DNA from: Sulfuriflexus mobilis
Lineage (GTDB): Bacteria > Pseudomonadota > Gammaproteobacteria > AKS1
Direction: 5' to 3'
Assembly: GCF_003967195.1 (NCBI RefSeq)
Contig: NZ_AP018725.1
Span: 1,674,001-1,738,000 of the forward strand
DNA: 64,000 nt
Part shown: one piece after another, positions 6,764-46,125 of the stretch
Layout: every line of letters begins with the position of its first letter
Position numbering within the stretch: the stretch's first letter is position 1
Translations under genes and position numbers: made by a program
Notes under the pieces: generated by a model
Told to the model about the DNA's origin: nothing
The model's database searches: none
The model's input: only the letters and a program-made list of their open reading frames with translations

Positions 6764-6781
6764 ACCACCATTGCATTAAAC

Positions 6782-6810
6782 AAAAAAGCCCTGCAATGCA
6801 GGGCTTTTTT
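6782..6810. terminator. Intrinsic terminator after trxB
   Basis: The perfect stem GCCCTGC / GCAGGGC is flanked by A6 on the left and T6 on the right, so it can end transcription of trxB and also from the opposite side, where the minus-strand histidine kinase gene converges on trxB and ends at 6854. Confidence 0.9.
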
Positions 6811-6853
6811 GATCTAATTCATGCGTTTTTTACGTGGGACCTGTCATTAATTT

Positions 6854-30083: not shown

Positions 30084-32087
30084 GTGTCATTACAATCCCT
30101 CAACCCGCGACAGCGTGAAGCCGTAGAATACCTGGCTGGACCGGTGCTGGTATTGGCCGGTGCCGGCAGCGGAAAAACCCGCGTTATAACCTATAAAATA
30201 GCCGAATTGATCCGCCGCCATGGCCTCGAGGCACGGCATATCGCCGCGGTTACCTTTACCAACAAGGCCGCTCGTGAGATGAAGGCGCGCATCACCGGCC
30301 TGCTAAACGCCGAGGCCGCCAAGGGCCTGCGCATCAGCACCTTTCATACCCTGGGCCTGAATATTATCCGCCGCGAGCTTACGACCCTGGGCTACCGCAA
30401 GGGTTTTTCAATCTACGACGATCAGGACAGCATGGCAGTACTGACCGAATTGGGCCGGGGTGAGAAAGAGGAACGTATTCGCCAGTTCCGCAACCAGATC
30501 TCACGCTGGAAGTCCGCCTGCATCGACCACAAGGAGGCGCAGCGTCTGGCCGAAGACCCGTTGCACAGCCATGCCGCCGAGCTCTATGAGGCCTACGACC
30601 GGCACCTGCAGGCCTGTAATGCCGTCGACTTTGATGACCTCATCTTCCTGCCCGTTCGCCTGTTCAGAGACCATGACAAGGTCTTGCAGCGCTGGCGTTC
30701 AAATATCCGCTACCTGCTGGTCGATGAGTACCAGGACACCAACTCCACACAATACGAGCTGGTGCGACAGCTGGTTGGTGATCGGGGTTGTCTGACCGTG
30801 GTCGGTGATGATGACCAGTCGATCTACGCCTGGCGCGGTGCGCAACCGGAAAATCTGGAACAACTGGCCAAGGACTTTACCAGCCTCAAGCTCATCAAGC
30901 TGGAGCAAAACTACCGTTCCATGGGTTGTATCCTCAAGGCGGCCAACCAGCTCATTGCCAACAACCCGCACGTGTTCGAAAAGGCCTTGTGGAGTGAACT
31001 GGGTTTTGGCGAACCCCTACAGGTGATTCGTGCCGCAAATGAAGAGCGTGAGGCCGAAAAGGTCGTCAACCGACTCATGCATCACAAATTCACCCAGCGA
31101 ACCCAGTTCAAAGATTACGCGATCCTTTATCGTGGTAACCATCAGTCGCGCCTGTTTGAACGCGCCCTGCGTGAATACAACATCCCTTATTACCTGAGCG
31201 GTGGCACCTCCTTTTTCGCCTACACCGAGATCAAGGACATCATGGGTTACCTGCGTGTACTCGCCAACCCGGACGATGACAATGCCATGCTGCGCATTAT
31301 CAATACACCAAGACGTGAGATCGGCCCCGGTACGGTAGAGAAACTCGTCGCCTTCTCACATGAGAAAAACTGCAGCCTGTATACGGCCTGCCATGATGCC
31401 GATCTCGATGAGAAACTGTCGAGCCGTGCACTGCGCAAGGTCCGCGAGTTTGCCGACTGGCTGGCCCGCATGTCCTACCAGACCGAGTCCGAACCACCAC
31501 TGCGGGTCGTTAAACAATTACTCACCGAGATTAATTACCAGCAGTGGCTGGAGGACACCTGCACGGATGAAAAGGCCGCCGAACGGCGCATGAACAATGT
31601 CCTGGAACTCGTCGAGTGGCTGGACCGCCTCGCCAAGCGCCCCAGCATGAGTGATGCCACACTCGGTGATCTGGTTGCCCGCCTGACCCTGCTCGACATC
31701 CTTGATCGTGACGATGAACAGGAAGGCGACCATGTTCACCTCATGACCCTGCATGCCGCCAAGGGCCTCGAATTCCCACACGTTTATATGGTCGGAATGG
31801 AAGAGGATATCCTGCCCCACCGTGTCAGTATCGAGGAAGGCAATATTGAAGAAGAACGTCGTCTCGCCTACGTCGGCATTACCCGGGCACAACGCACCCT
31901 TACCTTCAGTTATGCCGCACGACGTAAACGCTTTGGTGAAATGATCGAGTGCGAACCGAGTCGCTTCCTCGATGAGCTACCGGACGACGTCATTGAGCGT
32001 GAGGGACAAAATGAAGACCCTGAAGCCGCCCATGCCGAGGCTGAGGCCACACTGACTAGCCTGCGTTCGCTGTTACAGAAAAACTAG
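30084..32087 (+). CDS. rep: ATP-dependent DNA helicase Rep
   Basis: UvrD/Rep superfamily-1 3'-5' helicase. The 667-residue protein starts at GTG (SLQSLNPRQREAVEYLAGPV), with Walker A AGAGSGKT at about 25-32, motif II LLVDEYQDTNSTQYEL near 210, motif III VVGDDDQSIYAWRGA, and the C-terminal LMTLHAAKGLEFPHVYMVGMEE and RRLAYVGITRAQRTL motifs. The last 163 residues are duplicated at 36540-37028. dnaJ converges on it. Confidence 0.95.
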   Translation: MSLQSLNPRQREAVEYLAGPVLVLAGAGSGKTRVITYKIAELIRRHGLEARHIAAVTFTNKAAREMKARITGLLNAEAAKGLRISTFHTLGLNIIRRELTTLGYRKGFSIYDDQDSMAVLTELGRGEKEERIRQFRNQISRWKSACIDHKEAQRLAEDPLHSHAAELYEAYDRHLQACNAVDFDDLIFLPVRLFRDHDKVLQRWRSNIRYLLVDEYQDTNSTQYELVRQLVGDRGCLTVVGDDDQSIYAWRGAQPENLEQLAKDFTSLKLIKLEQNYRSMGCILKAANQLIANNPHVFEKALWSELGFGEPLQVIRAANEEREAEKVVNRLMHHKFTQRTQFKDYAILYRGNHQSRLFERALREYNIPYYLSGGTSFFAYTEIKDIMGYLRVLANPDDDNAMLRIINTPRREIGPGTVEKLVAFSHEKNCSLYTACHDADLDEKLSSRALRKVREFADWLARMSYQTESEPPLRVVKQLLTEINYQQWLEDTCTDEKAAERRMNNVLELVEWLDRLAKRPSMSDATLGDLVARLTLLDILDRDDEQEGDHVHLMTLHAAKGLEFPHVYMVGMEEDILPHRVSIEEGNIEEERRLAYVGITRAQRTLTFSYAARRKRFGEMIECEPSRFLDELPDDVIEREGQNEDPEAAHAEAEATLTSLRSLLQKN

Positions 32088-32126
32088 CACCATAAAATTT
32101 ATACAAATAAGTTGATAACTATCGGT

Positions 32127-33260
32127 TTATTGCCACCAGCGTTTTTTATCACTCTTGTCTGTTTTTCGTAATTGCTCATAGAGTGATTTTTCTTCTGCCG
32201 AAAGCCGTTCTGGAATGTGAACCTGTATACGTATATTGATATCGCCGTGCATTTTGGCACCGAATACCGGCAGGCCTTTACCCTTCAGACGCAGAACCTC
32301 ATCGGGTTGCGTACCTGCCGGCACGGTAACTTCAACGGAACCCTCCAGGGTGGGGATATTAAGTTTGGTCCCCAATACGGCGTCTGTGATCGCGATGGTC
32401 TCCATTCGCCATAAATCGGCACCGAGTCGTTCAAAGCGCGGATCGCGTTTACTCCTGACAATGACATAAAGATCGCCCGGCTGGCCGCCCGCCTCGGGGC
32501 TGGGCAAGCCGTGCCCGGGGATACGCAGGGCAGTCCCTTCATCGACACCGGCGGGGATCGTAACTTTGAGCTTATCGTCTTTTTCTATTTCACCCCGCCC
32601 TTTACATGTTTCGCAGGGATGATCAATAAAGGTCCCCTGGCCATGACAGACGGGACAAATGGCTATCTGTTGGAAACTGATCGTGCCCTTTTCCTTGGTC
32701 TCCCGCCGGGTCGTCACCTGCTTGCCACTGCCACCGCAGGCCTCGCATTGTCGTGGCTCAGTGCCCGGTTGTGAGCGTGTGCCATGACAATCAGGACAGC
32801 TCATCGGGCGGGTAAAGTGTACGGTTTCATCGCCACCGCTATTTACCTTTTCCAGTGGGATGGTCAGCCTGACTTCCAGATCACTGCCCCTGGCGGGCCC
32901 TGCCGGGCGCCGGTGACGGCCAAAGAAACTGTCAAACAGGCCGCCACCTCTCCCCAGGTCAAAGCCAAAACCCATGTCGCCGAAGATGTCGCCAAAATCG
33001 ATGCCGGAAAACAGGTCCTCGGCGGAGAAACCGGCTACGCCGGCAAAACCTCGTGCATCATAGTCGGCGCGTTTTTTTGGATCGGAGAGAATGGCATAGG
33101 CCTCGGCAATTTCCTTAAAGCGTGTCTCGGCATCGGGGGACTTGTTGCGATCAGGGTGATATTTTAACGCCAGTTCGCGGAAGGCATTCTTGATTGCCTT
33201 GGCGTCCGCATCGCGTGAAACACCGAGTACTTCATAGTAATCACGCTGTTCAGCGACCAT
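32127..33260 (-). CDS. dnaJ: DnaJ-type co-chaperone (accessory)
   Basis: The 377-residue type-I J-protein has a J domain with HPD (ELALKYHPDRNK, about 28-39). A Gly/Phe-rich segment at about 80-115 precedes four zinc-binding CxxCxGxG repeats (CPDCHGT, CEACGGSG, CPVCHGQG, CETCKGRG, about 150-225), followed by substrate-binding C-terminal domains. It is 8 bp downstream of dnaK. The hsp20-dnaK-dnaJ order without grpE differs from the housekeeping grpE-dnaK-dnaJ cluster, so I regard this as an accessory stress module. Confidence 0.88.
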   Translation of the reverse strand: MVAEQRDYYEVLGVSRDADAKAIKNAFRELALKYHPDRNKSPDAETRFKEIAEAYAILSDPKKRADYDARGFAGVAGFSAEDLFSGIDFGDIFGDMGFGFDLGRGGGLFDSFFGRHRRPAGPARGSDLEVRLTIPLEKVNSGGDETVHFTRPMSCPDCHGTRSQPGTEPRQCEACGGSGKQVTTRRETKEKGTISFQQIAICPVCHGQGTFIDHPCETCKGRGEIEKDDKLKVTIPAGVDEGTALRIPGHGLPSPEAGGQPGDLYVIVRSKRDPRFERLGADLWRMETIAITDAVLGTKLNIPTLEGSVEVTVPAGTQPDEVLRLKGKGLPVFGAKMHGDINIRIQVHIPERLSAEEKSLYEQLRKTDKSDKKRWWQ

Positions 33261-33268
33261 GAGTGATC

Positions 33269-35146
33269 TTAACTGGTCTCGGTGTAGTCCGCATCAACCA
33301 CCTTACCACGCGGACCGGCGCCGGAGGGTTTTGCCTCACCGCCCGCCCCACTCATGTCCGGCGCCTCATGGTAGGAATAGGGGCCTGATTTTGGCGCCTC
33401 GGGTGACTGCGAATAAACGGCGGTACCGGCCTCGCGGATGACCTTTTCAAGTTCGTCGGCACGTTGAGAGGCCAGTTCGGCATCACGGGCAGTAATGGCC
33501 TCACGTGTTTCACGCAACCGCTCTTCCAGACGATTGACGAGTTCTTCGCTCAATTTGTCACTGAATTCTGCTAACAGCTTTTCTGCCTGGTAACACATGC
33601 TGTCAGCCGTGTTAAGTTTATCGGCCTCTTCACGTCGTTTTTTATCCTGCTCGGCATATTTTTCCGCCTCATCGATAAAATGCTGCTTCTCATCATCAGA
33701 AAGTCGTGTCGAACCGGTAATGCTGATGGACTGGGATTTGCCGGTGACCTGGTCCTTGGCCGTGACATTCAGAATACCGTTGGAGTCTATGTCGAAAGTA
33801 ACATCGATCTTCGGTATGCCGCGCGGTGCCGGTACCAGTCCTTCAAGGTTGAATTCACCAAGGCTGGTATTATCGCGCGCCATTGGCCTTTCACCCTGAT
33901 AAACATGGATGGTCACGGCGGTTTGCATATCGGCCGCGGTGGTAAAGGTTTCGGTATGTTTCACCGGGATAGGGGAATTACGCGCAATCAGCGATGTTGC
34001 GACCCCGCCAAGGGTCTCTACACCCAGCGTGAGCGGTGTCACATCAACCAGGACAATATCCCCCACCTCGCCACTCAGCACACCGGCCTGAATGGCGGCA
34101 CCGCTGGCCACGCACTCCATCGGGTCGACACCCATTTCGGCTTTACGACCAAACAGGTCTTCAAAATATTTTCGTACCACAGGCATGCGTGTCGGCCCGC
34201 CGACAAAGACAATCCGGTCGATATCTTTTGCAACAACTCCGGCGTCCTTTAAGGCCTGCTCGATAGGGCCCCGGCAACGTTGCACGACGGCGTTCACCTG
34301 CCGTTCAAGTTCGGTGCGCGTCAGGTCCATTTCAAGATGCTTCGGTTGACCACCCGCCGCGGTGAGGTACGGCAGACTGATGTGCGTGGTCGTGCTGGTC
34401 GAGAGTTCAATCTTGGCCATCTCGGCCGCTTCCTTGAGTCGGGCGGCAGCTTTTACATCGGAACGAACATCTACACCGATCTCGGCATTAAATTTTTCAG
34501 CCAGGTAGTTAAGCAGGTTCTCATCCATGTCTGTCCCACCCAACTGGGTATCCCCACTGGTCGCTTTAACCTCAAACACGCCCTTGCCAAACTCCATGAT
34601 CGTGACATCGAGTGTGCCACCACCAAAATCAATTACCGCGATGCGTAATTCCTCACCCGCCCGGTCAAGTCCATAGGCCAGTGATGCCGCGGTGGGTTCA
34701 TTCACCAGGCGTGCCACTTCAAGACCGGCAATACGACAGGCATCTTTGGTTGCGCTACGTTGATTATCATCAAAGTAGGCAGGGACGGTGACCACTGCCT
34801 TTTCAACTGGTTCACCCAAAAAGGCTTCCGCATCACGCTTGATTTTTTGTAGAAGAAAGGCAGAAAGCTGTTCAGGTGAAAATGATTTATCGCGTAGTTG
34901 AAATTGTTTACGTTGCCCCATGCTCCGTTTGAAGGCCGTTGCGGTTCCCTCGGGGTTGGCTGCGGCTTGACGCCGGGCGGGCTCACCGGTCAGGGTCTGG
35001 CCATCAGCGGTAATCGCCACATAACTGGGGAAGGCCTTGCCACCAAGGCTGATCCCCTCGGCACTGGGTATGATCACAGGCCGGCCGCCACGCAAAACGG
35101 CAGCCGCCGAGTTTGATGTCCCCAGGTCAATGCCGATGATCGCCAT
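33269..35146 (-). CDS. dnaK: DnaK-type Hsp70 chaperone (accessory)
   Basis: The 625-residue Hsp70 has the N-terminal ATPase signature [34 protein letters not shown] and [18 protein letters not shown]. The linker is [14 protein letters not shown] at about residue 370, and the helical lid ends in a [13 protein letters not shown] tail. It deviates from E. coli DnaK in the first strands ([20 protein letters not shown]), as in secondary DnaKs. A strong terminator lies between hsp20 and this gene, so read-through or its own promoter at about 35150-35180 is needed. Confidence 0.9.
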
Positions 35147-35186
35147 CTACTTCTCCTTCACTTATTCTTACTATATAAACGAAAAA

Positions 35187-35218
35187 CCGATGCCCGGCCT
35201 AAACAAACCGGGCATCGG
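35187..35218 (-). terminator. Terminator or attenuator between hsp20 and dnaK
   Basis: An 11-bp perfect stem CCGATGCCCGG / CCGGGCATCGG with a 10-base loop, followed on the minus strand by TTTTTC. It lies 12 bp after the hsp20 stop and about 40 bp before dnaK, and so would uncouple abundant Hsp20 from DnaK/DnaJ expression. Confidence 0.88.
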
Positions 35219-35230
35219 GAGGTAAAGACT

Positions 35231-35740
35231 TTACTCCACCTTAATGGTGTGTCGCTTTGATTTCTTCAGTTTTGGCAAGGTTAGATTGAGGATGCCGTCC
35301 TTGAACTTGGCCTTGGTCTTCGATTCATCTACATCGGCCGGTAGTGATAGAGTACGTGAATAACTGCCGCGCGACATTTCGCAGCGGTAGTAATCCCCCT
35401 TCTCTTCCTTCTCTTCATGACTGGTCGTGCCTTTGATGGTTACCGTATTTTGGGTAACGGAGATATCGAGGTCCTTTTTATCCACCCCCGGCAGTTCTGC
35501 CTTCACGACAATCTCATTATCGCGCTCAATGACATCGACACTCGGCGTTTTGCCTTCGAATGGCGCCATCGTCTTGGGAAATGATGGCCACTCCATGTGG
35601 AAAGGTCGCAGCCAACCACGTGAGAAGTAATTGTCAAACATCCGTTCCATTTCCTCGAACGGACTCACCCCGCGGGCCGGCTCTACCTTCTGTACCGCCT
35701 GTTCGCTCTTTTTGCTCTCTTTTTTCTCTTCTTTAGCCAT
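35231..35740 (-). CDS. Small heat shock protein Hsp20
   Basis: Alpha-crystallin-domain holdase of 169 residues. A charged Lys/Glu N-terminus (MAKEEKKESKKSEQAVQKVE) is followed by FEEMERMFDNYFSRGWLRPF, an alpha-crystallin domain at about 65-160 (SVDVIERDNEIVVKAELPGV), A-x-F-KDGILNLTLPK, and a C-terminal lysine tail. The ATG at 35740 is preferred because AAGGAGT stands upstream; a longer frame to 35824 lacks a site. It is the first gene of the chaperone module. Confidence 0.93.
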   Translation of the reverse strand: MAKEEKKESKKSEQAVQKVEPARGVSPFEEMERMFDNYFSRGWLRPFHMEWPSFPKTMAPFEGKTPSVDVIERDNEIVVKAELPGVDKKDLDISVTQNTVTIKGTTSHEEKEEKGDYYRCEMSRGSYSRTLSLPADVDESKTKAKFKDGILNLTLPKLKKSKRHTIKVE

Positions 35741-35798
35741 GTCAGACACTCCTTGGTCAATAAATTGCAGTTGCACCAGTAATAACTCATGGATAGCT

Positions 35799-35825
35799 AT
35801 ATGTACGGCCATCCTCGTATTCAAG
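35799..35825 (-). promoter_or_regulatory. Candidate heat-shock or vegetative promoter of hsp20
   Basis: On the minus strand CTTGAAT (35825-35819) is followed after about 12 bases by GTACATAT (35806-35799), a partial match to the sigma-32 consensus. An overlapping TTGACT with TACATA could instead serve sigma-70. The gap upstream of hsp20 (35741-36076) holds this and one tiny frame, nothing else. Confidence 0.3.
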
Positions 35826-35951
35826 TCAAGGGGATACCATGATCTGGATCATCTTTAGGTATGTGAGGCCACATTTACCCCGAGTCCCGGATCACGAGGG
35901 TTTTGGCAGGCATTACTTATGACGCTGCATAACAGACTGAGGAGCTGAAAT

Positions 35952-36056
35952 ATGCTTGGTAATTCAAGAGCATATATTAATACCGGAAAGCGCCTTGCGC
36001 GAAGACGCTGCCGAAAGCCTGAGGTACCGGCCGGGCCGGCGGCGCCATACCGATAA
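35952..36056 (+). CDS. Possible 34-residue basic peptide
   Basis: A short frame MLGNSRAYINTGKRLARRRC, continuing to a Pro/Ala-rich tail, is preceded by GAGGAG at ideal spacing. It lies in the gap between hsp20 and the first dsrC-like gene. There is no homology clue; it may be chance. Confidence 0.25.
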   Translation: MLGNSRAYINTGKRLARRRCRKPEVPAGPAAPYR

Positions 36057-36076
36057 AATAACTAGAAGACGGGCAA

Positions 36077-36418
36077 CTAGAGATCCAGCAGCACCTTGAG
36101 GGGTTTCCGCATACCGGCGATCTTGCAGGCCTGTTGTCCATAGCCATAAGGGAACAAATTATAAACATGTTTGCGTGTGGCCCTGTCAGCACCGGAGTGT
36201 TCCTTCAGTGACTTCAGCACTTTTCTTAACTCGATCACACAACTGGTATGTTCGTAGTGATCACGAACGATCCTGACTATCTGCCAGCGCTCCTCGTTCA
36301 TCTCCAGCGATTCACCTTCGGCGATCTGTAAGGCAACCTCTTCGTTCCACTGTTCCGGCTCGAGGAGGTAGCCTTCATTGTCGGTATCGATGATCTTGCC
36401 AGCATATTCCAATGTCAT
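36077..36418 (-). CDS. DsrC/TusE-like protein, copy 1
   Basis: The 113-residue protein belongs to the TusE/DsrC/DsvC family: GYLLEPEQWNEEVALQIAEGE near the N-terminus and LFPYGYGQQACKIAGMRKPL near the C-terminus. The penultimate CysA of true DsrC and TusE is absent (the protein ends KVLLDL), leaving only the upstream Cys of ACKIAG and another in TSCVIELRK. It therefore cannot make the DsrC trisulfide chemistry in the standard way. It is nearly identical to the copy at 38810 and follows a remnant of dmsBC, so it is one half of a duplication. ATG 36418 is preferred on ribosome-site spacing. Confidence 0.8.
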   Translation of the reverse strand: MTLEYAGKIIDTDNEGYLLEPEQWNEEVALQIAEGESLEMNEERWQIVRIVRDHYEHTSCVIELRKVLKSLKEHSGADRATRKHVYNLFPYGYGQQACKIAGMRKPLKVLLDL

Positions 36419-36430
36419 CATATTCCCCTG

Positions 36431-36539
36431 TTAGTGCGCGTCGGGTACAACACCGGTCTGTGGCATATTGGCCAGGCCGGTTTCGCGGGCGTGTTCCTGA
36501 AAGCCCTTGTTACGCCAGAAAAAGCTCCCGGCATCGTCG
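36431..36539 (-). pseudogene. 3' remnant of dmsBC (duplicate)
   Basis: On the minus strand the last 35 or so codons read MPGAFFWRNKGFQEHARETG and on to VVPDAH plus stop, matching the end of the intact dmsBC gene at 39165 with one change (R for K). The homology stops at about 36539, where it joins a fragment of rep in the opposite orientation. No start or upstream domain remains. Confidence 0.85.
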
Positions 36540-37028
36540 AATGTCCTGGAACTCATCGAGTGGCTGGACCGCCTCGCCAAGCGCCCCAGCATGAGTGATG
36601 CCACACTCGGTGATCTGGTTGCCCGCCTGACCCTGCTCGACATCCTTGATCGTGACGATGAACAAGAAGGCGACCATGTTCACCTCATGACCCTGCATGC
36701 CGCCAAGGGCCTCGAATTCCCACACGTTTATATGGTCGGCATGGAAGAGGATATCCTGTCCCACCGTGTCAGTATCGAGGAAGGTAATATTGAAGAAGAA
36801 CGTCGTCTCGCCTATGTCGGCATTACCCGCGCCCAGCGCACCCTTACCTTCAGTTATGCCGCACGACGTAAGCGCTTTGGTGAAATGATCGCGTGCGAAC
36901 CGAGTCGTTTCCTCGATGAGCTACCGGACGACGTCATTGAACGTGAGGGACAAAATGAAGACCCGGAGGCCGCCCATGCCGAGGCTGAGGCCACACTGAC
37001 TAGCCTGCGTTCGCTTCCGCAAGACTAA
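36540..37028 (+). pseudogene. 3' fragment of rep (duplicate, residues about 505-667)
   Basis: Reads NVLELIEWLDRLAKRPSMSD through RRLAYVGITRAQRTL to the end of Rep, almost identical to 31597-32087. The Walker A half is missing, so it cannot be a helicase. Differences from rep are mostly synonymous (I count about 12 synonymous and 3 replacement changes), and the last residues differ (SLPQD versus SLLQKN). A TTG at 36507 in the fused dmsBC remnant could start a 173-residue protein, but this is doubtful. Confidence 0.85.
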
Positions 37029-37115
37029 TGACACCCGTATTACTGTCCAGTAACCCTCAATAATATACATATATGTATTATGGCTTTATAACCTATATAT
37101 AATAGGGAATTATTG

Positions 37116-37138
37116 ATACACATACGAGTCATGTGTAT
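37116..37138. promoter_or_regulatory. Inverted repeat upstream of the hybrid kinase
   Basis: ATACACAT-N7-ATGTGTAT, about 100 bp before the start, downstream of a TATAAT-like box near 37098. Could be an operator. Confidence 0.35.
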
Positions 37139-37236
37139 ATTATTCTTTACAAGGACGTGTAACGCGCTGAATAAGCGCTGTTACCAGGTAGATGAGCCTG
37201 AGAATCCAGCAGGCTAGAGTTTTCAGCTGAGGTAGT

Positions 37237-38787
37237 ATGAACAGTACAAAAAGTTCAGCAGGTTCATCGATTGATGAAAAAGAACTTATCGAGATCTTTA
37301 ACTACATGGTCGAAGGGATCATTACCATCAATGATCGTGGCAAGATACTCATTTTCAACCATAGCGCAGAAACCATGTTCGGCTATGACTCTAGTGAAGT
37401 CATTGGGAGCAATATAAATATACTGATGCCTGAACCACAAAGATCTAACCATGATAACTACCTCAAGAACTACATTGAAACCGGCATAGCACATATAATC
37501 GGTATAGGCAGAAAAGTTACCGCAGTAAAAAAGAATGGGGAAAAGTTTCCTATTCATCTTTCAGTAACCGAGTATCCATCCAAAAAAGAAGGCGAACGCT
37601 GGTTTATTGGCTCACTTCTCGATATCAGTCAACAAGTAAAACAGGAGGAACAATTACGCCGCAGCATGAAAATGGATGCCTTGGGTAAATTAACCGGTGG
37701 CATCTCACATGATTACAATAATATGCTCGGTATTATTATTGGTTATTCCGAAATTCTGTCACGAATACTGAAGGACGAACCAAAACCACTTGAGTATGTA
37801 GAGACCATTCGTCATGCTGCCCAGCGTGGCAGCGACTTGACGCGTAAACTATTATCGTTTTCCAGTGATAAACCCTTCAGCAGCGAAGTTGTCATCATTA
37901 ATGACTTGCTCAATGATGACTATAAAATGCTAAAGAAGACACTCACTGCAAATATTCAACTAACGCTCAAGCTTGAAAAGGACCTCTGGCCGGTGTTGGT
38001 AGACAAGGGCTGCCTTGAAGATGCCATTCTAAATATGAGCATCAATGCCATGCATGCCATGCCTGAAGGGGGTAAACTGGATTTTGCCACATCGAACGCT
38101 GAAATAGGCCCAATTGATGCACAGGTATTAAATATTGATAGCGGTGAATATGTTAAGCTTGCTATATGCGACACCGGCATTGGCATGAACGAAGAAATAC
38201 TATCCCACGTCTTTGACCCTTTCTATACCACCAAGAATGAAAAAGGTACGGGCCTAGGACTTAGCCAGGTATATGGATTTGTTAACAATGCAGGAGGGAC
38301 GATTCGTGTTTACTCTGAACCGGGGAAAGGAAGTTGTTTTTCCATATATTTCCCGAAATACGTGGAAAGAACAGACAATATAAAACCAATCAGCAACAAT
38401 GCAAGAGATGAAACACTGCCTCACCCCCCGGCGACAATATTAGTTGTCGACGATGAGCCCGATCTAAACAATCTTACCTGTACCATACTCAGGGCAGATG
38501 GTTATAGCGTTTTCAGTGCCGCCAACGCGAAACAGGCACTGACTATCTTAGAAAATAGGCATATAGACCTGGTTATCAGTGATGTGATCATGCCGCAGAC
38601 AGATGGCTTTGAGTTGGCGCATTATATTAAAAACACATACCCCAATATAAAAATCCAGTTATGTAGTGGCTTTGCCGAGAACAGAGGGAAAACTGTTACC
38701 GATGAGGACTTGTACAAAAAAATTCTACTCAAGCCTTTTATGACCAAGGAACTACTGGCGCGAGTCAAAGAAGTACTGGAAGAGTAA
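37237..38787 (+). CDS. PAS-domain hybrid histidine kinase with receiver
   Basis: Cytosolic 516-residue protein. An N-terminal PAS domain (NYMVEGIITINDRGKILIFN, FGYDSSEVIG, about 12-130) is followed by a HisKA domain with the acceptor His in GGISHDYNNMLGIIIGYSE at about 150-168. The HATPase domain has LNMSINAMHAMPEGG, CDTGIGM and GTGLGLSQVYGF. A C-terminal receiver runs from about 395 with VVDDEPDLNN and the phospho-Asp in LVISDVIMPQTDGFE. No output domain exists, so an Hpt partner and a second regulator are implied. The gene is AT-richer than its neighbours and lies between the two duplicate arms. Confidence 0.9.
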   Translation: MNSTKSSAGSSIDEKELIEIFNYMVEGIITINDRGKILIFNHSAETMFGYDSSEVIGSNINILMPEPQRSNHDNYLKNYIETGIAHIIGIGRKVTAVKKNGEKFPIHLSVTEYPSKKEGERWFIGSLLDISQQVKQEEQLRRSMKMDALGKLTGGISHDYNNMLGIIIGYSEILSRILKDEPKPLEYVETIRHAAQRGSDLTRKLLSFSSDKPFSSEVVIINDLLNDDYKMLKKTLTANIQLTLKLEKDLWPVLVDKGCLEDAILNMSINAMHAMPEGGKLDFATSNAEIGPIDAQVLNIDSGEYVKLAICDTGIGMNEEILSHVFDPFYTTKNEKGTGLGLSQVYGFVNNAGGTIRVYSEPGKGSCFSIYFPKYVERTDNIKPISNNARDETLPHPPATILVVDDEPDLNNLTCTILRADGYSVFSAANAKQALTILENRHIDLVISDVIMPQTDGFELAHYIKNTYPNIKIQLCSGFAENRGKTVTDEDLYKKILLKPFMTKELLARVKEVLEE

Positions 38788-38809
38788 ATACAAATAGCTT
38801 ACTTCACTA

Positions 38810-39151
38810 TCAAAGGTCGAGTAATACCTTGAGAGGCTTTCGCATGCCGGCAATCTTACAGGCCTGCTGACCATAACCGTAAGGGAAAAGTTGATAAACA
38901 TGCTTGCGCGTGGCCTTATCCGTACCGGATTGCTCTTTCAGTGACTTCAGCACTTTCCTCAGCTCAATCACGCAACTGGTATACTCGTAGTGATCACGAA
39001 CGATCCTGACTATCTGCCAGCGATCCTCTGTCATCTCGAGTGACTCACCTTCAGCAATCTGTAAGGCAACCTCTTCGTTCCATTGTTCCGGCTCAAGAAG
39101 ATAACCTTCATTGTCGGTATCGATGGTCTTGCCTGCATATTCCAATATCAT
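38810..39151 (-). CDS. DsrC/TusE-like protein, copy 2, last gene of the nitrate operon
   Basis: The 113-residue homologue of the protein at 36077 differs at about ten positions (MILEYAGKTIDTDN, TEDRW, KEQSGTDKATRKHVYQLF). It again ends ACKIAGMRKPLKVLLDL without the C-terminal CysA. It starts 13 bp after dmsBC, so it is transcribed with nirB-nirD-nasA-dmsBC. The family normally moves sulfur or senses sulfur state; a link to nitrate reduction is inferred from position only. Confidence 0.85.
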   Translation of the reverse strand: MILEYAGKTIDTDNEGYLLEPEQWNEEVALQIAEGESLEMTEDRWQIVRIVRDHYEYTSCVIELRKVLKSLKEQSGTDKATRKHVYQLFPYGYGQQACKIAGMRKPLKVLLDL

Positions 39152-39164
39152 AATATCTCTCATG

Positions 39165-41024
39165 TTAATGTGCATCCGGTACAACACCGGTCTGTGGCAT
39201 ATTGGCCAGGCCGGTTTCGCGTGCGTGTTCCTGAAAGCCCTTATTCTTCCAGAAGAAGGCGCCCGGCATCGTCGTCGGTATCACCAGCACATAAAATAAT
39301 GCCCTGCCGATCACTGCTGTTATTAGTATGCTGGCGGCTATGAATGTCCAGGCGACCAGACCCGCGACACCGGAAAGCCCGGCAAGGCTGATGCCGGCTA
39401 CCGCCAGCACACTCAGGGCAAGACCGGCATTTCGCAACCGATAGGTGTTGCCGAATGTCGTTGTCTGTTCGTAGTGTGAGGCGGCCCCTTCCCCACCTTG
39501 CTTGTGCATGTCACCCGCTTGACGCCAGAGGCCTGTCGCTTCGATAAGCAGGCCAATCAACATGGGCATGCTCAGGACCTGCAGGAGAGGGACATAATCG
39601 TGGCCGGCGGCCTGTTCCAGTGCGGCAAACACGAGCCCGGCGGCAAGTGGGCCGAGCACCAGCATGCTGCCGTAGAAGCTGCTCAGCACCTGCCAGTGGT
39701 TCCAGAACGGGCGTGCCTGGATGCGGTAGATCTTGTGCATAAAGTACAGTGCCACCGGCCCGGCCACGAGCGCCATCCATCCACTTGCCGTGCGCAGCGC
39801 CTCAACAAAGCCTTCGGGCAACCAGAGCAGACCCGGAAACAGGGTCATCAGGGTATAGGCACCGAGCAGGTTGTAAAATACGGCAATCGCGGCCACCTCG
39901 CGACTCACGGGTGAGTAACGCAGGTTATTAAAGGCACGGTAAAAACGCTGCGGTTTACCCAGATGCATGGTCGACAGAAACAATGCCAGTGTCTCCAGTC
40001 CAAGCAAGGCCAGTAACATAACCGGGAAACCGATCGGGTGTGCCTCGACACTGAGTTGTTGCAGGCCAAACATTGGGCCGAGGAACAGAACCGCAAAGGC
40101 ACCGACCACGGCCTGTGAGATAAGCGTGAAGATCACGAGTGGGTCTTCACGTGAGCGTAGCTTGCGCAGGTTCCACTCACGGCCCTTGCCGGTATCATGT
40201 ACCTTGGTATGAAACTCGCCCCTGCCCTGCTCATCGCGCTCATAACGGATCGGCATGCTGTCGGTGCGGGTCATCTCGCGTGGCAGACTTTTTTTCTGCT
40301 GGAAACGGATATTCGGCTGCGTGATCGCCGGCGTTGGGAAACCAGGGATGGTTGTCGACAGCTGATCCCGGTTTTCCGGACGGGTTTCGATAATACCGAA
40401 GTCCAGTGCACCGGCAAGACAGGCCGAGGCACAGGCGGGCTTCAGACCCACCTCAAGCCGGTCGACACACATGTTGCACTTTTCCACATGGCCCTTGACC
40501 GGATCCAGTTGTGGTGCGTTGTAGGGACAGACCCAGGTGCAATAGCCACAGCCAAAACAGATATCCGGGTCCTGGAGCACGGCGCCGTACTCGGCGAATT
40601 TGGTATAGGCACGGGTTGGGCAACCCTTCAGGCAGACCGGGTCATCGCAGTGGTTACAGGCCATGGAGATGTTCATGCGGTGATAATCCGGCCAGGTGCC
40701 ACCTTCTACGTACCCAACAGAACGGAAGGCCACGTGCGGTGACAGGTCGTTCTTTTCACTGCAGGCCGATTCACAGGCATGGCAGGCGATGCAATGATCC
40801 GCATTAAAGTAAAAACCGTGCTGCTTGTAGCGATTCGGGTTATCACTGACACCGCCATCGCCATTAATGTTCAGGCTCTTGCCTGCCAGTTCACTATCTG
40901 CCGTGACCAGGGTGATGGCTTTGCCGTAACGATTTTTTTGTGGTGCCTCAACCTGCGGGACGCGGGCATAATCCGGTTCATCATCACGGACCTTGAAGGC
41001 GCGGGTTTGGGTTTTATCCAGCAT
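39165..41024 (-). CDS. Fused DmsB/DmsC-type electron-transfer and membrane-anchor subunit
   Basis: The 619-residue fusion has an N-terminal half with four [4Fe-4S] binding clusters of Cys: CIACHACESAC, CNHCDDPVCLKGC, CFGCGYCTWVCP and CNMCVDRLEVGLKPACASAC (about 75-210). The C-terminal half (about 300-600) has roughly eight transmembrane helices of the DmsC/NrfD-like anchor type. It lies 18 bp after nasA, so it most likely passes electrons from the quinol pool to the nitrate reductase. The last 35 codons are duplicated at 36431-36539. Confidence 0.88.
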   Translation of the reverse strand: MLDKTQTRAFKVRDDEPDYARVPQVEAPQKNRYGKAITLVTADSELAGKSLNINGDGGVSDNPNRYKQHGFYFNADHCIACHACESACSEKNDLSPHVAFRSVGYVEGGTWPDYHRMNISMACNHCDDPVCLKGCPTRAYTKFAEYGAVLQDPDICFGCGYCTWVCPYNAPQLDPVKGHVEKCNMCVDRLEVGLKPACASACLAGALDFGIIETRPENRDQLSTTIPGFPTPAITQPNIRFQQKKSLPREMTRTDSMPIRYERDEQGRGEFHTKVHDTGKGREWNLRKLRSREDPLVIFTLISQAVVGAFAVLFLGPMFGLQQLSVEAHPIGFPVMLLALLGLETLALFLSTMHLGKPQRFYRAFNNLRYSPVSREVAAIAVFYNLLGAYTLMTLFPGLLWLPEGFVEALRTASGWMALVAGPVALYFMHKIYRIQARPFWNHWQVLSSFYGSMLVLGPLAAGLVFAALEQAAGHDYVPLLQVLSMPMLIGLLIEATGLWRQAGDMHKQGGEGAASHYEQTTTFGNTYRLRNAGLALSVLAVAGISLAGLSGVAGLVAWTFIAASILITAVIGRALFYVLVIPTTMPGAFFWKNKGFQEHARETGLANMPQTGVVPDAH

Positions 41025-41042: not shown

Positions 41043-43223
41043 TTAGTACGTTCTAGCCGCATGATTGCGCACGGCGGCGGCAGTCTGATCCGCTACCGAT
41101 TCAATCTTCACGGCACTTTGTTTGAAGGCCGGCTGGCGCGAATGCGGATCCAGCAGACCCAGGGTCAGGCGGTTGACACATTCATGGAAATGAAACGGGA
41201 TAAAGATCATGTTTGGTGCCACGCGCTGGGTGAGCTGTACCATAACCACGGCATCCCCTCGACGTGAGATCAGACGTGCATATTTACCATGTTCGATACC
41301 CAACTCACGTGCGGCATCCGGGTTCATTTCCATATATGGGGTCGGACTGAACTTGTTCAGGTTACCAACCTTGCCCGTGCGGGTGCGGGTATGGAAATGT
41401 TCAACGACACGACCGGTATTCAGCCAGAATGGATACTCTTCGTCAGGACGTTCATTGTTATCGATAAATGGCAAAGGGATCAGCTTGGCCTTGCCATCCT
41501 CGAACTGGAACCTGCCATCACTATACAGACGAGCCGTACCGCCCTCTGCCCCTTCCGTGCAGGGCCACTGGATTCCACGTTGCTGCTCGAGCTTTTCATA
41601 ACTCAGCCCGGAGTAATCCAGCATCCTGCCCCTGGAGAGCTCACGCAATTCGTCAAAGACCTCCTCACTGGTTTCCGGGAAGCGGATTTTTCTGCCTTGC
41701 GCAAAGCGCTTTGCCATTTGGTTGAATATCCACAGGTCTGATTTGGACTCTTCATGCGGTGGCATGACGTTGCGGATCAGGTTCACACGACGCTCGGTAT
41801 TGGTAAAACAGCCCTCTTTCTCCGCCCACACGGCGGCCGGGAAATAAACGTGACTATATTCGTTGGTTTCCACATCGGCGTAGGCATCCTGTACAACCAG
41901 GAATTCGAGTTTCTCCAGGGTCTTGCGGATTCGCGCGGTATTGGTCATTGAGGTCATCGGGTTGGTCGCGATCAACCACAGGCCCTTGATCTGACCCGTC
42001 TCAATCGCCGGGAAGATATCGGTCTGGAACAGACCGCGTTGTTTGGGGAAAAATTCCGGATCAATGCCCCAGTAATTGGCGATATCCTCGCGGTCTTTTT
42101 CCTTTTCCAGCGCCCTGTAACCCGGCAGGCCGGAACAGGATGACCACTCACGTGTACCCATGGCATTGCACTGGCCGGTAATGGAAAGGCTCGTACCACC
42201 CGGCTTGCCAATATTACCGGTGATCAGGTTCAGGTTATTGATACCCACCACACCATCCGAGCCGTGCGTACTCTGATTAATCCCCATGGTCCAGATCGTC
42301 ATCGCCGCACCGGCCTTTGCATAGAGGCGCGCCACATTACGGATGGTGTCTTCATCGATACCACAAATACGGGAAGCGGTTACCGGGTCATACTCAGCTA
42401 CGAGTTTCTTAAATTCCTCATTGCCATTGGTATGTGCATCGATATAGGCGCGGTCTTCAAGGCCCTCATCAAGAATGACATGCGCCAGTGCATTCAATAA
42501 CACAACATCCGTACCAGGCGTGACCGGCAGATGCATATCGGCCATTTGCGAAAACATGGTCACGCGCGGGTCAACCACGATGATCGGGAACTTGCGTTTT
42601 TCCAGTGCCTGGCGCAGGCGCCAGAAGATGATCGGGTGCTGTTCCGGCAGGTTGGAGCCAATCGCCAGCAGGCATTCGGTATGTTCGAAATCATCGTAAC
42701 AACCCGGCGGGCCATCCGAACCAAAGGAACGCTTGTAACCGGACACGGCCGAGGCCATGCACAAGGTCGTGTTGCCGTCATAGTTGTTGGTACCGAGCAC
42801 ACCCCGGGACAACTTGCCCAGGGTGTAAAACTCCTCGGTCATGATCTGCCCGGTGGAGACCACGGCAAAGGCATCGCGGCCATAGGTCGACTGGATACGC
42901 TCGATCTCCGAGGCGGTCTTGTCAAGGGACCTGTCCCAACTGACCTCCTTGAAATCGTGATGGATCTGGTCACGCATGAGTGGCACACGGCCACGGTTTG
43001 GCGTATAGAACAACTCATGCTCAAAGATGCCCTTCAGGCATAACTTGCCGCGGTTGACATCGGCACCTGCAACACCGCGACTACTGACGGCCTTGCCGTC
43101 CTTGTCCAGACCGACTTCGATGGAGCAGCCCGTAGAGCAATAGCCACAGGTGGTGTATTTCCAGTCGACGACACCCTTGTCGGCGATCCTGATGGCATTC
43201 TTTTTTGCACGACCAAACAACAT
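41043..43223 (-). CDS. nasA: Assimilatory nitrate reductase catalytic subunit (molybdopterin)
   Basis: Reduces nitrate to nitrite in the cytoplasm. The 726-residue protein has the N-terminal [4Fe-4S] motif CGYCSTGCSIEV then NRGKLCLKG. It has bis-MGD regions CMASAVSGYKRSFGSDGPPG and TMGINQSTHGSD, then GQCNAMGTREWSSCSGLPG, and the C-terminal NTGRVVEHFHTRTRTGKV pocket. It lacks the C-terminal [2Fe-2S]/BFD extension of Klebsiella NasA (about 870 residues), so it needs an external donor, consistent with the fused subunit next to it. There are 16 bp between the nirD stop and its start. Confidence 0.93.
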   Translation of the reverse strand: MLFGRAKKNAIRIADKGVVDWKYTTCGYCSTGCSIEVGLDKDGKAVSSRGVAGADVNRGKLCLKGIFEHELFYTPNRGRVPLMRDQIHHDFKEVSWDRSLDKTASEIERIQSTYGRDAFAVVSTGQIMTEEFYTLGKLSRGVLGTNNYDGNTTLCMASAVSGYKRSFGSDGPPGCYDDFEHTECLLAIGSNLPEQHPIIFWRLRQALEKRKFPIIVVDPRVTMFSQMADMHLPVTPGTDVVLLNALAHVILDEGLEDRAYIDAHTNGNEEFKKLVAEYDPVTASRICGIDEDTIRNVARLYAKAGAAMTIWTMGINQSTHGSDGVVGINNLNLITGNIGKPGGTSLSITGQCNAMGTREWSSCSGLPGYRALEKEKDREDIANYWGIDPEFFPKQRGLFQTDIFPAIETGQIKGLWLIATNPMTSMTNTARIRKTLEKLEFLVVQDAYADVETNEYSHVYFPAAVWAEKEGCFTNTERRVNLIRNVMPPHEESKSDLWIFNQMAKRFAQGRKIRFPETSEEVFDELRELSRGRMLDYSGLSYEKLEQQRGIQWPCTEGAEGGTARLYSDGRFQFEDGKAKLIPLPFIDNNERPDEEYPFWLNTGRVVEHFHTRTRTGKVGNLNKFSPTPYMEMNPDAARELGIEHGKYARLISRRGDAVVMVQLTQRVAPNMIFIPFHFHECVNRLTLGLLDPHSRQPAFKQSAVKIESVADQTAAAVRNHAARTY

Positions 43224-43239
43224 ACCTGAAAACCTTTAC

Positions 43240-43575
43240 TTAATTCGGACAACCTTCATTCGGCGTCAGGGACAAAAATACGGCATCCCCCTCCAGCTTG
43301 ACCGGGTAGTAAGCCGCACAACCCTCATCCGGGGCCACGGCCAGACCGGAATCGAGATTGATCTTCCAGTCATGCAGCGGGCAGGCCACGCGTTTACCGT
43401 GTACGATACCCTGTGATAAGGGCCCGCCCTTGTGCGGACACTTGTCACGCAGGGCAAATACCTCGTCGTCTGCGGTGCGGAATACCGCAATATCACCCTG
43501 CTTTGACTCAACCACGCGTGCGCCGAGTCTCGGGATGTCGCTGAGGGTGCCAATTTCTATCCAGTTTTCACTCAT
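43240..43575 (-). CDS. nirD: Nitrite reductase small subunit NirD (Rieske type)
   Basis: The 111-residue protein MSENWIEIGTLSDIPRLGAR has a Rieske-type domain with CPHKGGPLSQG and CPLHDWKINLDSG, i.e. both Cys-x-His and Cys-x2-His ligand pairs, so it may carry a [2Fe-2S] cluster, unlike the cluster-less E. coli NirD. ATG 43575 is preferred over the TTG at 43587. It lies 45 bp after nirB. Confidence 0.93.
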   Translation of the reverse strand: MSENWIEIGTLSDIPRLGARVVESKQGDIAVFRTADDEVFALRDKCPHKGGPLSQGIVHGKRVACPLHDWKINLDSGLAVAPDEGCAAYYPVKLEGDAVFLSLTPNEGCPN

Positions 43576-43620
43576 TGTCTTGTCCAATCTGTTTTTCTGG
43601 CCTGTTGTTCCAGAAGATAT

Positions 43621-46059
43621 TTAGGCATTGAGCTGCTTGAGCGGCTCGAATTCATGTTTTTCTGCACCCTGGGCACGTTGCTGCCACGGGTCATCCTGGG
43701 CGAACTTCTGCGAGAAGTGGAAACGCTCAGCCAGTGCCACGCGGTTATCCGCGTCATCGACGATCTGTTCCTTAACATGGGCCAGGCCGACACGTTCTAT
43801 CCACGGTGCGGTACGTTCGAGGTAATGCGCCTGTTCACGATAGACCTGCATAAAGGCCGCGGCGTACTCGAGCACCTCTTCCTCTGTACTGACTGCACAA
43901 AGGAAATCTGTGGCGCGGACCTTGATGCCGCCGTTACCGCCGACATGCAGTTCGTAACCGGAATCGACACAGACCACACCAAAGTCCTTAATGGTCGCCT
44001 CGGCACAATTACGCGGACAACCGGAGGCGGCCATCTTGTACTTATGCGGGGTCCAGGAACCCCAGGTCATCTTTTCCAGCTCGATACCGAGCTGGGTCGA
44101 GTCCTGGGTACCAAAACGACACCACTCCTTGCCAACACAGGTCTTCACGGTACGCAGGGCCTTGCCGTAGGCATGCCCCGAGACCATGCCAGCCTGGTTC
44201 AGGTCATTCCAGATCACCGGCAGTTCGTGTTTTTTCAGGCCATACAGCGCGATGCGCTGACCGCCGGTAACATGCACGGTCTTGACGTTAAACTTTTCTG
44301 CCACATCGGCGATTGCACGCAACTCTTCCGGCGTTGTGCCGCCCCCCCACATACGCGGAATCACGGAATACGTCGCATCCTTCTGGATATTGGCGTGGGC
44401 GCGTTCGTTGATAAAACGTGACTGGCCGTCATCGCTGCCAGCGTCCGGCCAGGCACACATGACGTAATAGTTCAGGGCCGGGCGACATTTGCTGCAACCA
44501 TCCGGGGTCTTCCATTCCATGAAGTCCATTACGCTGCGGATAGACTTGAGTTCTTTTTCCTTGATCGTGGCACGAATTTCATCATGCGTATGTTCGGTAC
44601 AGGCACACAGGGGTTTCAGGTGCGGGGCTACCGAGTAGTCACCACCAACAGTATGCGCGAGCAGGCTCTCGACGAGACCCGTACAGGAGCCACAGGAACT
44701 CGAAGCCTTGGTGTGCGCACGCACGTCTTCAAGCGTAAAGAGTTTCTTGTCGGTAATGGCCTTGACGATGTCACCCTTGCAAACACCGTTACAACCACAG
44801 ATTTCGGCACTGTCGGCCATCATGGCAATACGGTTCTCATCACCGTGACCCGAATCACCAAGATGGGCCTGACCGAAGAGGATATTTTCACGGAAGTCGC
44901 TGATATCCGTCGCATCGCGCATCAGGTCGAAATACCAGCTGCCATCGATAGTATCGCCATACATGACCGCGCCCTTGAGCTTGTTGTCCTGCACGACCAG
45001 CTTACGGTAGACACCCCGCGAGGCATCCTGGAAGACCAGTTCCTCGGTATCTTCACCGCCGGTAAAATCCCCGGCCGAGAACAGGTCGATGCCGGTGACC
45101 TTGAGCTTGGTTGAGGTCATTGAACCCTCATAACGACCAATCCCCATCTTCGCCAGGTGATTGGCGCAGACCTTACCCATTTCAAACAGGGGCGCGACCA
45201 GACCATAGACCTGGCCACGGTGTTGCACACATTCACCGACGGCATAAACCTTCGGGTCAAAGGTCTGCATCGTGTCATTGACGACAATACCGCGTTCACA
45301 GTGAATGCCGACCTTTTCGGCCAGAGCTATATTGGGTCGAATCCCCACGGCCATGACGACCAGCTCGGCGGGTATCTCACGGCCGTCTTCAAGCAGCACT
45401 GATTGCACGTGGTCCTGACCCTTGATCTCTTTGGTCGAGGCCTGCATAAGGATTTCCAGACCGCGGTCTTCCAGCGACTTGCGCAGCATCTTACCGGCGA
45501 CGCTATCAAGCTGGCGTTCCATCAGGGTATCCATGAGGTGCAGCACAGTGACCTTCATGCCCTGCTGCATCAAACCGTTGGCCGCCTCAAGACCCAGCAG
45601 GCCACCACCGATGACCACCGCATGCTGATGTTGCTTGGCGGCCTCGAGCATCTTGTCGACATCATGGATATCACGGAAGCCGATGACTCCCTCGAGCTCA
45701 TGTCCGGGGCATGGGATAATAAATGGAGTAGAACCGGTAGCCATCAGCAGGCGATCGTAGCTTGCCTTGGTACCGTCTGAGGCGATCACCTTCTGCGCAG
45801 AGCGGTCGATATTGATAACCTCTTTGCCTTTGTGCAGGGTGATATGGTTATCGATATACCACTGTTCATCATTGAGCATGATCTCATCAATGGTCTTCTC
45901 GCCGGCCAACACCGGTGAGAGCATAATGCGATTGTAGTTGCCGTATGGCTCTGCGCCAAAGACTGTAATGTCATACAGGTCAGGGGCGACTTTAAGGAGT
46001 TCTTCGAGGGTTCGTACACCGGCCATGCCGTTGCCGATAAGGACAAGTTTTTCTTTCAT
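43621..46059 (-). CDS. nirB: NADH-dependent nitrite reductase large subunit NirB
   Basis: Siroheme enzyme reducing nitrite to ammonium. The 812-residue protein starts KEKLVLIGNGMAGVRTLEEL with the FAD motif. A second dinucleotide motif VVIGGGLLGLEAANGL follows, then a BFD-like [2Fe-2S] region (CGCNGVCKGDIV, SSCGSCTGLVESLL) and siroheme/[4Fe-4S] ligands in KTCVGKEWCRFG and ASGCPRNCAEA near residues 640-690. ATG 46059 fits the family N-terminus; a start at 46071 would add four residues. It is the first gene of the nirB-nirD-nasA-dmsBC-dsrC operon. Confidence 0.95.
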   Translation of the reverse strand: MKEKLVLIGNGMAGVRTLEELLKVAPDLYDITVFGAEPYGNYNRIMLSPVLAGEKTIDEIMLNDEQWYIDNHITLHKGKEVINIDRSAQKVIASDGTKASYDRLLMATGSTPFIIPCPGHELEGVIGFRDIHDVDKMLEAAKQHQHAVVIGGGLLGLEAANGLMQQGMKVTVLHLMDTLMERQLDSVAGKMLRKSLEDRGLEILMQASTKEIKGQDHVQSVLLEDGREIPAELVVMAVGIRPNIALAEKVGIHCERGIVVNDTMQTFDPKVYAVGECVQHRGQVYGLVAPLFEMGKVCANHLAKMGIGRYEGSMTSTKLKVTGIDLFSAGDFTGGEDTEELVFQDASRGVYRKLVVQDNKLKGAVMYGDTIDGSWYFDLMRDATDISDFRENILFGQAHLGDSGHGDENRIAMMADSAEICGCNGVCKGDIVKAITDKKLFTLEDVRAHTKASSSCGSCTGLVESLLAHTVGGDYSVAPHLKPLCACTEHTHDEIRATIKEKELKSIRSVMDFMEWKTPDGCSKCRPALNYYVMCAWPDAGSDDGQSRFINERAHANIQKDATYSVIPRMWGGGTTPEELRAIADVAEKFNVKTVHVTGGQRIALYGLKKHELPVIWNDLNQAGMVSGHAYGKALRTVKTCVGKEWCRFGTQDSTQLGIELEKMTWGSWTPHKYKMAASGCPRNCAEATIKDFGVVCVDSGYELHVGGNGGIKVRATDFLCAVSTEEEVLEYAAAFMQVYREQAHYLERTAPWIERVGLAHVKEQIVDDADNRVALAERFHFSQKFAQDDPWQQRAQGAEKHEFEPLKQLNA

Positions 46060-46125
46060 TGGGCTTCCCATGTTGCACTGACTCGCCGTTGAGCCGTGTC
46101 CTGCTAAATTAGCTAATCCTGATAG

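Follow-up and report, generated by a model that had tools for sequence, protein, structure and literature searches.

Cargo that changes from strain to strain between two conserved genes has been described in Neisseria, where such sites are called minimal mobile elements (MMEs; Saunders and Snyder 2002, Snyder et al. 2007) and are defined in PMC3082526. In pneumococcus, natural transformation makes merodiploids (Johnston et al. 2013, PMC3784515), incoming DNA promoting a chromosomal tandem duplication that leaves two allelic versions in one chromosome. In a search for illegitimate integration of plasmid DNA in Escherichia coli, partial target duplications turned up in 56 of the 60 clones recovered (109–950 bp in the 14 that were sequenced), which the authors ascribed to a single crossover of circles after sequence loss, and three of four joints from true homology-facilitated illegitimate recombination (HFIR) were without homology (PMC3240628). 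Here we describe a locus in Sulfuriflexus mobilis aks1 that shares features with all three. The window analysed is the 64-kb stretch from base 1674001 to base 1738000 of the genome (AP018725; 3,111,340 bp), and positions below are window positions. Within it, the interval between the DNA helicase gene rep and dmsBC, a DmsB–DmsC fusion gene, is filled by two tandem arms that each contain a dsrC-like gene and carry different cargo. We read the region as probably a small merodiploid, in which one cassette interval is represented, in tandem, by two alleles that had diverged beforehand.

Two arms and a joint without shared bases

A first-pass annotation had placed dnaJ, dnaK, hsp20, dsrC and a dmsBC remnant in the first arm, behind the 3′ part of the intact rep, and a rep remnant, a hybrid kinase, dsrC and intact dmsBC in the second, with the two remnants meeting near 36540. 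Profiles and coordinates agree with this order in both arms (Table 1), and the remnants abut at exactly 36539/36540. Aligning the arms by self-BLAST over the complete window recovered exactly two pairs of direct repeats, the remaining match being a short palindrome elsewhere. The rep pair (31596–32071 vs 36540–37015; 476 bp) has 15 mismatches and no gaps (96.8% identity, E = 0.0), while the pair spanning dsrC and the 3′ end of dmsBC (36093–36539 vs 38826–39274; 449 bp) has 60 mismatches and two gaps (86.2%, E about 1e-149). Genome-wide, the junction region matches the two arms only, plus a 48-bp echo from the DsrC family, and a plasmid search with the interval returned weak matches only, those listed falling in dnaK.

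At the joint, the dmsBC partner reads CATCGTCG/TCGG and the rep partner ATGAAC/AATG, the slash marking the junction. The chimera follows dmsBC to the left of the joint and rep to the right, and the two partners have zero bases in common at this point. At the far end of the duplicated segment, homology stops 16 bp ahead of the stop codon of the intact rep, and the last six codons are unlike (LLQKN-stop vs LPQD-stop).

Table 1 Features of the tandem and its right-hand context, in window positions.
Feature	Position	Strand	Basis or remark
rep (DNA helicase Rep), intact; codons 505–662 duplicated	30084..32087	+	TIGR01074 above cut-off
rep 3′ segment, arm 1 copy, 476 bp	31596..32071	+	96.8% identity to 36540–37015
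dnaJ, arm 1 cargo	32127..33260	-	Pfam DnaJ, DnaJ_C, CXXCXGXG
dnaK, arm 1 cargo; distinct from the genome's two other Hsp70 genes	33269..35146	-	HSP70; nearest own paralogue 49%
hsp20, arm 1 cargo	35231..35740	-	PF00011; start at internal ATG inferred
dsrC1, dsrC-like, arm 1	36077..36418	-	PF04358, TIGR03342; 92% amino acid identity to dsrC2
dmsBC 3′ end remnant, 1-bp frameshift near joint	36431..36539	-	aligns to 39165–39274
Chimeric junction, dmsBC remnant/rep remnant, no shared base	36539..36540		both partner sequences
rep 3′ remnant, frame open, own last codons LPQD-stop	36540..37028	+	sequence comparison
PAS/HisKA/HATPase/receiver hybrid kinase, arm 2 cargo	37237..38787	+	profiles; 42% GC vs 55–57% in flanking genes
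dsrC2, dsrC-like, arm 2	38810..39151	-	TIGR03342
dmsBC (DmsB–DmsC fusion), intact; duplicated part 39165–39274	39165..41024	-	PF04976; TIGR02951 below its cut-off
nasA-like molybdoenzyme (nitrate-reductase-like), nirD, nirB; right-hand context common to relatives	41043..46071	-	profiles

We then compared the same interval in G001, G002 and G003, which are all the other genomes of the genus and also the whole order in the genome set searched. All three have a single, unduplicated rep–X–dsrC–dmsBC, the order that the first-pass annotation had proposed as ancestral, with nasA and nirD (and nirB) next in line as far as the contigs extend; one G003 contig begins inside this order. With S. mobilis included, rep and dsrC–dmsBC(–nasA–nirD) form conserved flanks, in the same order, in four of four genus genomes. 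A scan of the genome contigs found no further loci, and duplicate arms of this kind did not turn up in unrelated places of the relatives.

What lies at X differs. By a reading of translated open reading frames (ORFs) rather than by profile, G001 has a PEP-CTERM-like gene as its cargo, G002 a small gene and a large cytochrome-like one, and G003 EF-hand-like and MCP genes. Contig C175 of G003 (L040) is a sibling of G001, both coming from metagenome S139, and the two are 96% identical through rep and through dsrC, which indicates that the G003 bin mixes strains. Identity between them stops about 13 bp outside rep and dsrC, and nothing is common in between: the PEP-CTERM-like gene occupies the interval in G001, and the EF-hand and MCP genes occupy it in C175. 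The other G003 contig, C38 (L039), keeps both cargoes, the PEP-CTERM-like gene having become a remnant through a large internal deletion. This remnant, at L039:2289–2680, is without the repetitive middle of the G001 gene and lies beside the EF-hand-like and MCP genes. The cargo of the rep/dsrC interval varies among sibling Sulfuriflexus strains, and because it differs in otherwise near-identical strains, each arm of the S. mobilis tandem can have come with its own cargo.

Unequal divergence and the origin of the tandem

The first-pass annotation took the arrangement for the product of a tandem duplication from inside rep to inside dmsBC, with cargo lost or inserted later. The layout fits a duplication with these endpoints, but a single duplication diverging in place should have left arms of equal divergence, and the arms are not equally diverged. 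In the rep tail, the arms are separated by 12 synonymous and three nonsynonymous differences (synonymous divergence, dS, 0.117; nonsynonymous divergence, dN, 0.008), whereas dsrC has a dS of 1.04 and a dN of 0.044, a gap of about ninefold in synonymous divergence. When only degenerate codons encoding the same residue in both arms were counted, 12 of 149 differed in the rep tail and 37 of 99 in dsrC (P = 2e-8). In dmsBC, the count was 3/23 before the last four codons (P = 0.03 against dsrC) and 4/4 within them (P = 0.002 for the step). As a control, rep and dsrC diverge alike between pairs of relatives (P 0.06–0.84). Taking as yardsticks a dS of 0.1–0.23 between G001 and C175 and of 1.45 between the dsrC genes of G001 and G003, the rep and dmsBC flanks of the two arms differ at strain level and the inner part at species level. 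One duplication of the whole segment is therefore insufficient unless parts of it were replaced or converted. The same contrast argues against cargo lost or inserted after a single duplication, and strain-variable cargo allows the two sets to have arrived separately.

One step in divergence lies at about rep codon 662, the other within the final four codons of dmsBC. They fit crossovers at these points, and gene conversion between the arms could also produce them. Divergence climbs along dsrC toward the cargo. Nucleotide constraint on the conserved dmsBC stretch was considered and rejected, the stretch varying freely between G001 and G003.

The rep remnant provides a clock of a different kind. 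Free drift since its creation predicts that about 54–63% of its differences would be nonsynonymous, and 20% are (P = 0.0008–0.009 for kappa 1–6 and omega 0.02–0.1). From this synonymous excess, most of the rep divergence probably arose while both sequences sat in working genes, in separate cells. The 15 differences are fewer near the joint, but not significantly so (Kolmogorov–Smirnov P = 0.13), and their spread was set aside as support for a duplication in which one arm was later overwritten.

Where the DNA came from, how it entered and in which order events took place we infer as follows. Allele A, rep–(dnaJ–dnaK–hsp20)–dsrC1–dmsBC, and allele B, rep–(hybrid kinase)–dsrC2–dmsBC, would have diverged in separate cells, the cargo between the convergent rep and dsrC genes probably being swapped by homologous exchange through the flanking genes in the fashion of a minimal mobile element. 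DNA of a sister strain would then have settled beside the resident allele, which stayed in place. The likeliest course is that a donor fragment with its end within dmsBC underwent illegitimate joining to a site within rep, a homologous crossover in rep completing the tandem. The route may have been a circularised fragment entering by a single crossover, or HFIR; had a tandem duplication formed first and incoming DNA replaced one of its arms, the traces would be almost identical. A partial target duplication with a homology-free joint, as a single-crossover merodiploid has, is present in the form of the 476-bp rep repeat. The low GC of the kinase (42%), together with a GC content at third codon positions (GC3) of 0.535 in dsrC2 against 0.623 in dsrC1 and about 0.65 in neighbouring genes, suggests a foreign origin for the inner part of arm 2.

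Several points weigh against a merodiploid origin. Neither parental allele is seen alone, and the relatives compared are other species. A dsrC divergence so far above that of rep requires the inner segment of one allele to derive from a more distant lineage, which is an extra step. The relic test is small, with 15 differences to go on; by maximum likelihood, 14% of the divergence accumulated while the segment was a free relic, a share whose upper bound lies near 60%. Three differences are assigned by outgroups to the rep remnant, two of them nonsynonymous, and one nonsynonymous change to the intact rep; because two of the three remnant changes alter the protein, some drift after joining is likely. 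A ComEC domain is present, but the same search finds ComEC in E. coli too, and competence is not established by it.

The tandem could instead be an old in-place duplication in which the two dsrC genes diverged while remaining functional, each arm gained or lost cargo, and conversion between the arms kept the rep and dmsBC ends alike. Such an origin accounts for the layout and the joint, and both dsrC copies are indeed strongly constrained, as their low dN beside a dS of 1.04 attests. The rise of dsrC divergence toward the cargo would also be expected of conversion working from the far ends, and reciprocal retention of cargo is seen between strains of the relatives. We nevertheless consider it unlikely, since the rep remnant, once it had last been converted, should have drifted mostly by nonsynonymous change, and 12 of its 15 differences are synonymous, with the probabilities given above. 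In the dmsBC remnant, too, 25 of the 27 residues ahead of the diverged terminal codons are retained, so that an old duplication needs recent conversion there as well. A recent simple duplication with one cargo inserted afterwards would agree with rep arms that are 97% identical and gap-free, but is very improbable because dsrC (dS about 1) and rep (dS about 0.12) cannot share an age (P about 1e-8). It can be rescued only by a replaced dsrC, at which point it becomes the merodiploid that we prefer.

Stacked insertions of a site-specific element at the rep 3′ end, each carrying its own rep end, would explain why the remnant is the 3′ end of rep, since pieces of the target gene are what tandem islands leave behind, and the cargo at this site varies in every relative. 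We reject this origin as scarcely credible because recombinase and core repeat are both lacking. By Pfam and NCBIfam scans of the window ORFs, neither arm has an integrase, transposase or resolvase, nor is one evident at the loci of the relatives, as judged from ORF translations without a profile scan. The repeat is 476 bp long and bounded by dmsBC material, not a short core, and no short repeat of the rep 3′ end was found beside the cargo in the relatives. An assembly artefact, which the first-pass annotation had named as a way in which its reading could fail, is just as hard to sustain. Mixed-strain data could also put two alleles in one contig by joining contigs of two strains, but aks1 is a cultured strain whose genome is a single circular PacBio contig of 3,111,340 bp (PMC6397845) with 0.11% contamination, and the flanking genes have no second copy. 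This is judged from the finished assembly, with raw reads not checked.

Under the merodiploid reading, recombination in either pair of repeats could remove an arm and restore one clean parental arrangement. It is doubtful that the tandem is a working two-way switch; if it were, recombination between the rep copies would drop 4,944 bp and leave the kinase allele only, and recombination in dsrC–dmsBC would drop about 2,734 bp and leave the chaperone allele only. Should tandems of this kind arise and resolve frequently, they would be the stage through which the cargo differences of sibling strains come about. What one complete natural genome appears to hold here is the state between two alleles, with the joint, the remnants beside it and both cargoes still in place. 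Two arms with unlike cargo can arise otherwise than by duplication and later loss, and unequal arm divergence and the synonymous bias of the remnant can distinguish the two origins. The rep/dsrC interval is also pointed to as a strain-variable site in Sulfuriflexus, although the practical reach of this is modest.

Cargo, DsrC-like proteins and surroundings

The chaperone set is patchy in its distribution, DnaK relatives of 76–88% occurring in three of the 273 other genomes of the class searched (L079, L080 and L081). In L079 and L080 the gene order is dnaK–dnaJ–hsp20, permuted with respect to hsp20–dnaK–dnaJ here. A strong terminator-like hairpin of 14 pairs followed by a T run (35187–35218) separates hsp20 from dnaK on the strand that encodes them.

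Both dsrC products match profiles of the DsrC/TusE/DsvC family (PF04358, 8.8e-32; TIGR03342, 97–101 bits against a cut-off of 53.5). Sulfur-trafficking DsrC proteins carry two conserved cysteines in a C-terminal arm. Both copies and those of the related genomes end in ACKIAGMRKPLK(V/I)LLDL, with the upstream cysteine present and the penultimate cysteine absent; judged by these predicted termini, neither copy has the cysteine pair of a sulfur-trafficking DsrC. A literature search on this DsrC sub-type yielded nothing useful. The two genes, like those of the related genomes, stand downstream of a DmsB–DmsC fusion and a nitrate-reductase-like enzyme with NirBD, and the S. mobilis genome has eight DsrC/TusE-family places, the highest count among the 56 genomes in the search. 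Elsewhere in the window, a 51-bp imperfect palindrome (6772–6821) follows a thioredoxin-reductase-like gene, beside a stretch of 44% GC (7–9 kb) with a histidine-kinase-like gene.

Comparison with described systems

As far as the definition in PMC3082526 goes, the rep/dsrC interval resembles a minimal mobile element in having two conserved genes, strain-specific whole-gene cassettes between them and no mobility gene, and in Sulfuriflexus the identity of siblings ends just beyond the flanking genes. It differs in holding two cassettes at once, each with its own dsrC and with gene remnants between, and in that homologous exchange and natural competence are putative in this genus. A literature search for tandem minimal mobile elements found none. 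As in the pneumococcal merodiploids, two allelic versions lie in one chromosome; those cases span about 100–900 kb and rely on pre-existing chromosomal repeats, whereas the S. mobilis tandem measures a few kilobases and its joint is without homology. In this last respect it is closer to the E. coli integrants, which combine one homologous event with one homology-free joint and whose target duplications of 109–950 bp bracket the 476 bp found here, although those were laboratory events and ours is reconstructed from one natural genome. The processes are known and the example is a clean one; its only unusual point is that the two alleles stand side by side.

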